From: an archaeon
GTDB lineage: Archaea; Thermoproteota; Nitrososphaeria; Conexivisphaerales; UBA164
Reading direction: 5' to 3'
Length of the DNA: 44,347 nucleotides
Assembly: GCA_021792955.1 (NCBI GenBank)
Contig: JAJYTP010000007.1
Location: forward strand, 1-44,347
In this document: piece after piece, positions 6,814 through 9,682 of the stretch
How positions within the stretch are numbered: position 1 is the first letter of the stretch
Layout of the letters: the number at the start of each line of letters is the position of its first letter
Notes under the pieces: model-generated
The model's database searches: none
What the model saw: only the letters and a program-made list of their open reading frames with translations
Told to the model about the DNA's origin: nothing
Translations under genes and position numbers: made by a program

Positions 6814-7539
6814 CTATGGTTTCCAGACCGACCTTCCCTTCCTTCCGGCAAAGTATCCTAGCGCGCCGCCGACCGCACAGAATACGCCTGCCGATGCCGC
6901 CGTAATGCCTGATAGGATAGGGAGAGTATATACACCCATGACGAATAGTGAGAATATCGCCACCAGCGCCGCATCTGCAACCCCAAATAATAGTGAAATC
7001 ATGGCTGCGCCGCTAAGCCTTAGACCATCCTTGCCAAGCCATATCACCAGTTCGGCTGCGCCGGCCCACCCAAAGTAAAACAGCGTCCAGATGGGATTGA
7101 AATAGGAAATCATGGAGAGGATGTAGAATGGGACCATCATGGAAAAGATGCTGCCGGGCTTGTGCACCATTGTGATCAGGGCGGCGAATATGATCCCTTG
7201 GGGGAGGTATATCAGAAGGTCTGTGGCTACGTAACTGATGGGGGGGACGTAGTAAACGAACGCCGGGACAAAGCCAGTCACGAACTGTGCTACGTAGAGA
7301 AGCACTCCGAAGGATACAGTAAGGGCCATATCCTTCTCTGAGAAGTTCTTTGGAAACCCCTTTGATATCGATACTGCGAGGCCACCTATAATTAGAGCAC
7401 TAGCTACCGCAATGGTTTCCCATTCCGCAATGCTGCTCCCATGGTATAAGCTGAAGAGCGTATAATTTATTGCAATTAATATAGCCGCAATTACCGCTGA
7501 GCCTATAACTATCCCCACGTTGCTTGTGCCTGACGACAT
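6814..7539 (-). CDS. Membrane S component of an ECF transporter, probable
   Basis: A 241-residue, very hydrophobic protein with about six to seven membrane segments. It has no hit-like soluble domain. It is divergent from the ECF ATPase and T component, shares their promoter, and has the size of a substrate-binding (S) component such as YkoE or ThiW-like proteins. The ATG at 7539 is chosen over longer readings because it lies 26 nt from the centre of the TATA palindrome at 7561-7570. A longer frame would read through that promoter. The likely role is to bind a vitamin, vitamin precursor or metal and deliver it through the shared T/ATPase module. The substrate is unknown; an HMP/thiamine role like YkoEDC is suggested only by the two-domain ATPase architecture. 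Confidence 0.6.
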   Translation of the reverse strand: MSSGTSNVGIVIGSAVIAAILIAINYTLFSLYHGSSIAEWETIAVASALIIGGLAVSISKGFPKNFSEKDMALTVSFGVLLYVAQFVTGFVPAFVYYVPPISYVATDLLIYLPQGIIFAALITMVHKPGSIFSMMVPFYILSMISYFNPIWTLFYFGWAGAAELVIWLGKDGLRLSGAAMISLLFGVADAALVAIFSLFVMGVYTLPILSGITAASAGVFCAVGGALGYFAGRKGRSVWKP

Positions 7540-7552
7540 GGATGGAGTATCC

Positions 7553-7578
7553 AACCAACATTTATATAAACGTTGGTT
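7553..7578. promoter_or_regulatory. Palindromic bidirectional TATA promoter
   Basis: The core TTTATATAAA (7561-7570) is a perfect palindrome, flanked by AACCAAC (7553-7559) and GTTGGTT (7572-7578), a perfect 7-bp inverted repeat. Each strand therefore reads AACCAAC, one base, then the same TATA box. The box centre (7565.5) is 25.5 nt from the GTG at 7591 and 26.5 nt from the ATG at 7539 on the other strand. That is the archaeal TATA-to-start distance, so both messages should be leaderless. The flanks may act as matched BRE elements, as a repressor site, or both. Confidence 0.75.
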
Positions 7579-7590
7579 TTCAGTATCAGT

Positions 7591-8898
7591 GTGAGCCCAC
7601 TTATCGACACCAGTGGATTGTCCTTCTCTTACGAGGGGTCGAAAGAGCATACTTTTGAAGGACTGCGGATGGCGTTGGACCGTGGAGAGCTTACCCTTGT
7701 GAGCGGGCCAACCGGTTGCGGTAAATCCACCTTCATTTATCTACTGGCCGGCCTTTATCCGGAGCATATATTTGGAGATCTCAGTGGGGAGCTGCGTGTA
7801 GGGGGAATGACCGCCCCTGCAGCAAGAAGGGAGGGGTTCACATTTTATGTGCCGCAGGATCCAGTAAATGCGCTTGCAGGTTATGACGTATATACGGAAT
7901 TAGCATGGCGCGGCAGCACCAGGGAGCAAATACACGATGTTGCCGACGAACTGGGCATCGAGAAGTTGATGAATAGATATGTCATGCAGCTTTCCGGTGG
8001 AGAGGTTCAGAGGGTTGCCATCGCATCAGCCATTCTCAGCGGCGCCAAGGTATTAATGTTCGATGAGCCCCTTGCAAACCTAGATGAGGAAGGAAGGACG
8101 GATTTTATTTCTACCATAAGGAGGCTAAAAGAGGCCGGCCTAGCGGTAGTCGTAGCCGAACACAAGGTAAGGTACTTCAGGGGAATGGTGGACCAAGAGA
8201 TCCCACTAGATGGTCACGGTCTTACTGGCACGGTAACAGGTTATCCACCGAAGATAGCGCACAAGGAAGGCGATATAGTTGACGGTAAAAGCCTGATCAG
8301 CTTTAAAGGGCTTTCCTATGGATACGACTCCGGGCTTCCGGTCCTGAGGGATATTGAGCTTGATCTAAAACGGGGTTCAGTAACTGGCTTGGTTGGGCCA
8401 AACGGCTCCGGGAAAAGCACCCTCGCTAAGATCCTGATAGGGCTCATAAGGCACAGGGCGGTCAGGTTGAAAGGCATCGAAGTGGGCTTCTCCCTGCAGT
8501 CACCAGAGGCTCAATTCCTAATGGATGACGTAATATCTGAACTGCTATACAGCAACGGCGATAGGGGCAGGGCTAGCGCACTTATGGATCTTTTCGGGTT
8601 AAACGACTTCTCCCGTCAGCTGCCACACGCCCTGAGCAGGGGCCAGAGGGTAAGGGTATCTGTAGCTTCGGCTGCTATGCGTAACCCGGACCTCCTGGTG
8701 CTAGATGAACCTACCCAGGGCCAAGATGCCCGCGGGCTCTACGCCCTGGCCAGGCTGCTCAGGGATGAAGCTTCAAAGGGATCAGCCATCCTGATCATAA
8801 CCCAGGATATGGACTTCGCTGGTGCAGTTTGTGACAGGATACTTCTAATGACAAGGGGGATAATAGCCGAAATGGGCGATCAGAATGAAAGTCTTTGA
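7591..8898 (+). CDS. ECF transporter ATPase, fused A1-A2 (two ABC domains)
   Basis: A 435-residue protein holding two complete ABC ATPase domains in one chain, as in YkoD and CbiO-type fusions. Domain 1: Walker A GPTGCGKS at residues 39-46, signature LSGGEVQ, Walker B VLMFDEPLANLDEEG. Domain 2: Walker A GPNGSGKS in the middle of the chain, signature LSRGQR (degenerate), Walker B LLVLDEPTQGQD. It would drive import on the cytoplasmic face of the membrane with the T and S components. The GTG at 7591 is preferred over an upstream TTG at 7573 because the TTG lies inside the promoter palindrome and before the expected transcription start. The 3' end overlaps the T-component gene by 14 nt, so the two are translationally linked. 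Confidence 0.88.
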   Translation: MSPLIDTSGLSFSYEGSKEHTFEGLRMALDRGELTLVSGPTGCGKSTFIYLLAGLYPEHIFGDLSGELRVGGMTAPAARREGFTFYVPQDPVNALAGYDVYTELAWRGSTREQIHDVADELGIEKLMNRYVMQLSGGEVQRVAIASAILSGAKVLMFDEPLANLDEEGRTDFISTIRRLKEAGLAVVVAEHKVRYFRGMVDQEIPLDGHGLTGTVTGYPPKIAHKEGDIVDGKSLISFKGLSYGYDSGLPVLRDIELDLKRGSVTGLVGPNGSGKSTLAKILIGLIRHRAVRLKGIEVGFSLQSPEAQFLMDDVISELLYSNGDRGRASALMDLFGLNDFSRQLPHALSRGQRVRVSVASAAMRNPDLLVLDEPTQGQDARGLYALARLLRDEASKGSAILIITQDMDFAGAVCDRILLMTRGIIAEMGDQNESL

Positions 8899-9682
8899 TT
8901 ATGTAGCTTCGGATGATCCTATGAGCCGGCTGGATATCAGGCTGAAGGTATTTGTAATTTTCAGCATAGGGATCGTCACCCTGATGAAGTGGAACCTGAT
9001 TGTCCTTGTTCTACTGCTGGCCATCACGGTCCTGCCGTACCTGATCTTCGCACGGAGCTCCCTTCATAGGCTTAAATGGTGGGGAAGATTCATAGTGTTA
9101 ACCACAGCCCTGTTGATCCTATCACAGGGGTTCTTTTACTGGGGGTATTACCAGGGGTTGAGGGTCGATGTGCTATTTTACCTGTTCAAGCCTAACTCAA
9201 ATGCCTTCATTAACCTTTTCACCAATGGGATGGGAATTGCTTTAACGTCTCAGGGGCTGTACTGGGGCTTGCTTGCGGGCCTGAAGTTCGGCATAATGGC
9301 GTTAGCAGCGGCGCTGACCATCATGAGTGTGAGCCCCAGGGAATGGTCATCGCTTCTTAGCTGGATCAAAATGCCCAAGTTTCTTCAGCGTCTGTTTCTT
9401 GCCACCGTCAGGGTAACTCCCATGATACTTGAAGAATCGCTCTATCTATATTCGGTGGCGCGGCTCAGGAGGCCGGCCTCGATCGGCGACAGGATCAGGT
9501 TACCATATAGGCTGATCAAATCGATGATTTTTATAACCATCAGAAAAGCGATGTTACTGACCATAGCGCTAGAGATCAAGGGGGAGCCAAAGTTCAGGCC
9601 GGAACGCCTTAAATTAAAGAGGAAGGACCTGGTCATAGCATCGATTTGGATAGCCGCAATACTGCTGCCTGGTCTGCTCTGA
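8885..9682 (+). CDS. ECF transporter T component (EcfT)
   Basis: A 265-residue membrane protein of the EcfT/CbiQ family. It opens with the usual SRLDIRLKVFVIFSIGIVTL stretch (an 'xDPRxK' type start before helix 1) and has about five to six membrane helices. A cytoplasmic coupling region contains a basic VARLRRP motif, matching the Arg-containing motif through which T components contact the ATPase grooves. It overlaps the ATPase gene by 14 nt, so the two form one operon. With the divergent S-like gene this gives a complete dedicated (group I) ECF importer. Confidence 0.85.
   Translation: MKVFDYVASDDPMSRLDIRLKVFVIFSIGIVTLMKWNLIVLVLLLAITVLPYLIFARSSLHRLKWWGRFIVLTTALLILSQGFFYWGYYQGLRVDVLFYLFKPNSNAFINLFTNGMGIALTSQGLYWGLLAGLKFGIMALAAALTIMSVSPREWSSLLSWIKMPKFLQRLFLATVRVTPMILEESLYLYSVARLRRPASIGDRIRLPYRLIKSMIFITIRKAMLLTIALEIKGEPKFRPERLKLKRKDLVIASIWIAAILLPGLL

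Follow-up and report, generated by a model that had tools for sequence, protein, structure and literature searches.

The window, by which we mean the whole stretch of 44,347 nucleotides that was analysed, encodes an ECF importer in two divergent parts, with a TATA box and two overlapping dyads at their junction:

6814..7539, minus strand: S-like membrane protein of 241 aa, the probable substrate-binding (S) component of the ECF importer, with its ATG at 7539 (from the open reading frame and predicted fold)
7539..7557, no strand: copy TGGATGGAGTATCCAACCA of a 19-bp dyad with consensus TGGATGGATNATCCATCCA, a putative cobalamin operator (from recurrence and gene context)
7553..7578, no strand: AACCAAC-TATA-GTTGGTT dyad of an earlier, sequence-only reading; the left arm overlaps the putative operator and the right arm is genus-specific
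7561..7570, no strand: shared TATA box TTTATATAAA, its position kept in 10 homologous promoters
7591..8898, plus strand: ECF ATPase with two ABC domains (A-A' fusion), GTG start
8885..9682, plus strand: ECF T component (CbiQ/EcfT family; PF02361, E 3e-11)

The transporter is assigned to the ECF type as a T component (PF02361) and two ABC domains are encoded together. The S component gave nothing at gathering level against Pfam, where PF09605 was a weak match (best member 3e-5). Its AF2 model (pLDDT 77) has an ECF S component, 5edl, as its top Foldseek match, with probability 1.00 and TM 0.46-0.54 but an E-value of 0.11. A solved sequence homolog of the S component was searched for and not found, and no homologs were found in viral contigs. 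S homologues of relatives are likewise divergent from an ECF ATPase. We infer that cobalamin or a corrinoid is the most likely substrate of the importer. The genome (G000) is that of an uncultured archaeon, and its nearest named relative in the collections is the metagenome-assembled Nitrososphaerota archaeon FK4_bin.88.

Cobalamin genes beside a 19-bp dyad

In relatives, the interval from the TATA box to the S start codon contains a dyad with the consensus TGGATGGAT-N-ATCCATCCA, with 3-4 bp between dyad and TATA box. The window copy (7539-7557) lies directly 3' of the TATA box at a distance of 3 bp; it has two mismatches to TGGATGGATNATCCATCCA and is imperfect, with two unpaired positions. 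The right half of TGGATGGAGTATCCAACCA holds most of the left arm of the dyad at 7553-7578. The sequence-only reading had raised the possibility of a regulator that binds the dyad it described. A binding site is indeed predicted, but the conserved dyad is the one at 7539-7557 and not that at 7553-7578.

Allowing up to two mismatches, we identified the 19-bp dyad in 9 of the 11 genomes of the family; the reversed dyad pattern, used as a control in the same genomes, was found in none. With at most one mismatch it is present in 45 of 400 genomes of the class and in 78 of 398 Thermoproteota genomes (1 for the reversed pattern). No copy was detected in families f7 and f10, probably ammonia oxidisers. 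The window's genome shares its class with what look like ammonia-oxidising archaea. A dyad-like site near a CofE-like gene in G001 and G002 (two mismatches) falls within the coding frame or at its beginning and was set aside as chance or coding sequence.

At 66 of the 87 distinct sites, the dyad has beside it an outward-reading gene for an ECF S component, BtuF, CobT, CobD or NrdD. An A/T-rich TATA element directly precedes the dyad (positions -9 to -3) and the start codon usually follows it directly. Pfam and NCBIfam matches confirm PF12822 S components, BtuF-type binding proteins, CobT (TIGR00303), CobD (TIGR01140), FecCD permeases, NRDD and HemA beside the dyad. Profile comparison detected no relationship between the S family of the window and the S components of PF12822 type that share this dyad. 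No neighbour gene matching the reference set was found at 21 of the 87 sites, and some of these are B12-like: a BtuC-like gene (L148) and HemA (L090) and, by eye, a CbiE-like (L078) and a chelatase-like gene (L152). The B12-independent reductase NrdD occurs in only two genomes of the family, both of which have the dyad at the NrdD start as well as the B12-dependent reductase NrdJ.

A second copy is present in the window's own genome. On contig G000:C43, an identical 19-mer and the shared TATA box have on one side an S paralog (82% identical) and on the other an ATPase remnant of about 43 codons, followed by cobD, cobyric acid synthase (cbiP/cobQ), cbiB, cobS and a CobY-like gene. The duplicated promoter leads into this cobD-cbiP-cbiB-cobS-cobY run (L102, 2431-8885), an apparent case of promoter capture by rearrangement.

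Uptake, cobamide assembly and a B12-sparing isozyme are the set expected of a cobalamin regulon. We therefore read the 19-bp dyad as a putative cobalamin operator that would govern transcription both ways from a single TBP site. In bacteria, the textbook case is control of B12 genes by riboswitches, and the logic would be the same here, with B12 uptake, the synthesis of cobamides and B12-independent isozymes controlled jointly. Unlike bacterial riboswitches, the element is a DNA dyad at a core promoter and not an RNA element: a covariance search of 7000-8200 against Rfam (E <= 0.1) returned no match, and so no cobalamin riboswitch. In 2003, Rodionov and colleagues reportedly described, for some archaea, a 'CBL-box' as the site of a hypothetical B12 regulator.

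Several other genes at or near the dyad may be of interest in their own right. NrdD is fused to an N-terminal winged helix and an ATP-cone at two sites (L086, G278:C26; L088, G196:C6), where an S-component gene lies on the other side of the dyad and reads the opposite way; this reductase might regulate itself. Another NrdD frame (G003:C24:168-1529) has one in-frame TGA, apparently at a Trp position in G001. At L100 (G001:C66, 4059-10092), nrdDG adjoin a second ECF transporter and, by eye, genes for a radical-SAM enzyme and a uroporphyrinogen methyltransferase/siroheme synthase. Asparagine-synthase-like genes repeatedly adjoin the dyad in families f3 and f11 (L057, L070, L077, L078, L079, L084, L085); no amidotransferase domain was detected in them, and they may encode a new cobamide-related enzyme. 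At L070, L077, L084 and L155, the dyad lies at the start of genes for secreted proteins that contain a DILIDFGNGTxRWYN-like stretch and could be surface corrinoid binders. The protein at L155 carries DUF4430, which we take to be transcobalamin-like.

Candidate regulator

The regulator is probably a member of the DUF4443/PH0730 winged-helix family, judging from gene neighbourhood and co-occurrence. A DUF4443 gene and an S-component gene diverge from the dyad in families f2, f4, f11 and f14, and a DUF4443 gene lies within about 3 kb of the dyad in G536, G570, G585 and G686; one or other arrangement is found in families f2, f4, f11, f14, f62, f65, f69 and f81. Within the class, 43 of 45 operator-bearing genomes have DUF4443 versus 229 of the 355 others (Fisher 3e-6, phylogeny ignored), and in the rest of the phylum the counts are 39 of 40 versus 31 of 40 (Fisher 0.007, phylogeny ignored). 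DUF4443 was not found in three operator-bearing genomes, G008 and G010 (both incomplete) and G444 (96% complete). The gene of the window's genome (G000:C49:48231-48515) lies away from the ECF locus. Its AF2 model (pLDDT 88) matches PH0730 (2p8t) and the DNA-binding domain of CggR. The modelled protein folds like PH0730, with a CggR-like DNA-binding domain; PH0730 itself has no assigned function. The papers searched contained no mention of DUF4443.

It is a real possibility, though one we lean against, that the operator is genuine but is bound by another protein, DUF4443 genes being merely co-regulated members of the regulon. Divergent placement fits co-regulation as well as autoregulation, and DUF4443 is present in many genomes that have no dyad. 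DUF4443 is also common in ammonia-oxidising archaea without the dyad, and is therefore not diagnostic. Against co-regulation alone, the protein has a CggR-like DNA-binding domain, the family is widespread and usually present in one copy per genome, and its gene is found beside the operator in several independent families. Many f7 and f10 genomes keep DUF4443 without the dyad, and the protein may have another site or role there.

The shared TATA box and its flanks

We identified the divergent S/ATPase gene pair in eight genomes of the family, representing three genera, and aligned ten promoters from them, duplicate copies included. The TATA centre is 25.5-29.5 nt from both start codons in all ten, and the start codons are 52-58 nt apart. 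Between genera, the proteins of the pair are only about 40-47% identical. In the window, the centre at 7565.5 is 25.5 nt from the GTG at 7591 (plus strand) and 26.5 nt from the ATG at 7539 (minus strand), exactly the distances given by the sequence-only reading. Spacing of this leaderless type, with a TATA box about 26 nt before the start codon, is common among the genes of the window. The proposal that one TBP site serves two divergent, near-leaderless ECF genes is supported by the spacing kept in ten promoters, and the case that this single TATA box fires both ways appears well supported.

Bidirectional transcription from one TATA box, with starts 49-50 bp apart, is known in Pyrococcus furiosus (PMC6640164). 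The BRE-TATA-BRE promoters described there resemble the present one in having a near-symmetric TATA box, bound symmetrically by TBP, between divergent starts about 50 bp apart; the second transcript there is mostly regarded as antisense RNA without function (PMC6640164). Unlike the P. furiosus case, both directions here code for importer halves, the arrangement is conserved and the predicted operator is on one side. The two genes could instead use separate neighbouring TATA boxes, or only one direction could be active, with the symmetry of the TATA box incidental: TATA boxes are often near-palindromic, and A/T-rich DNA yields functionless antisense starts (PMC6640164). We consider this unlikely, as the sole TATA-like element between the two starts is common to both genes and both spacings are kept in three genera despite protein identities of about 40-47% between genera.

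The dyad noted by the sequence-only reading (7553-7578) reads AACCAACATTTATATAAACGTTGGTT, with 7-bp arms at 7553-7559 and 7572-7578. It exists but is not perfectly symmetrical as had been stated, since 12 of 13 pairs match and A7560 and C7571 are unpaired. No other 26-bp palindrome of the 44-kb window reaches 11 of 13 pairs; a first-order Markov model predicts 0.02 (at least 12/13) or 0.51 (at least 11/13) per window. Scaled to the genome, about 0.5 palindromes with at least 12 of 13 pairs are expected, and the TATA core is itself palindromic; chance is thus only modestly excluded. The exact AACCAAC/GTTGGTT flank pair occurs once in the genome, and a genome-wide search for the flank dyad with three mismatches gave matches no commoner than those of the reversed control.

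Comparison of the dyad among relatives had been proposed as a check, with its loss where the genes are kept counting against it, and such loss is what we found for the flanks. The right arm GTTGGTT is intact in two of four promoter copies of the genus (G000:C61 and G001:C19), the flank dyad has one arm substitution in G001:C55, GTTGGTT is lost from the paralogous promoter on G000:C43, and the flanks are absent from the aligned promoters of genera g2 and g3. The symmetry of AACCAAC and GTTGGTT as a functional element, whether a directionless promoter or itself the regulator's site, is accordingly not borne out. We regard it as very unlikely, even though this dyad is rare by chance and is present in G000:C61 and G001:C19 and, with one arm changed, in G001:C55. 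The right arm is missing from G000:C43, g2 and g3 although the TATA box, the genes and the 19-bp dyad remain, and the exact flank dyad is unique in the genome.

The promoter is asymmetric, because the 19-bp dyad is shifted to 7539-7557. The BRE position of the ATPase direction overlaps the 19-bp dyad. In the S direction, the BRE position is rich in purines in g2 (GAAAGA) but reads AACCAACG in g1. The core is near-symmetric and the predicted regulatory site one-sided; the direction of transcription, which had been suggested as possibly undecided, therefore need not be so.

Predicted mechanism and significance

The NrdD genes that carry the dyad might suggest a deoxyribonucleotide or redox regulator, with the ECF importer as one more target, but this is highly improbable, as the dyad is also carried by CobT, CobD, BtuF, BtuC-type FecCD and HemA genes and by the cobamide operon of the same genome, and NrdD is what one would expect as the B12-sparing isozyme of genomes that also have NrdJ.

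The observations are that the promoter geometry and the dyad are conserved, that the dyad lies among B12 genes, and that the same genome has a second copy next to a cobamide operon. We have good confidence that 7539-7591 represents a bidirectional promoter with a shared TATA box and one B12 operator, for which DUF4443 is the probable regulator. TBP would bind at 7561-7570, and TFB and RNA polymerase could be loaded either way. This would give two leaderless or nearly leaderless messages, one for the S component (minus strand) and one for the ATPase and T component (plus strand). We infer that control is by repression and that B12 is the signal. When B12 is plentiful, a dimeric repressor would occupy the dyad at 7539-7557. 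The operator spans about -18 to +1 in the S direction, where a bound dimer would block initiation; on the ATPase side, 3 bp separate it from the TATA box, and there it overlaps the TFB contact at the BRE, which the same dimer would prevent. Both directions would thus be shut together. When B12 is scarce, the site would empty and both halves of the importer would be made.

The cobalamin regulon of P. furiosus (CblR, RegPrecise) is listed with its regulator unknown (PMC10746257). The system described here resembles the predicted CblR regulon (RegPrecise) by description, as a putative protein-regulated archaeal B12 regulon with no riboswitch. It differs in that the dyad TGGATGGATNATCCATCCA is traced across Thermoproteota, the shared TATA box is part of the arrangement and a candidate regulator is named. 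Tentatively, and at somewhat less than even confidence, we propose that DUF4443/PH0730 proteins are archaeal B12-sensing repressors, one dimer of which, on the 19-bp dyad, would silence two divergent leaderless operons that share one TBP site.

These results offer a precise predicted operator and a putative phylum-wide regulon, name a candidate protein for which the structure of a relative has been solved (2p8t), and so supply a candidate for an archaeal B12 regulator listed as unknown (PMC10746257). The locus also appears to be a conserved case of a shared archaeal TATA box serving two coding messages, in which the two halves of an ECF importer can be tied to one switch. If the proposed role of DUF4443 is true, the importer halves would be switched together without any upstream regulatory region.
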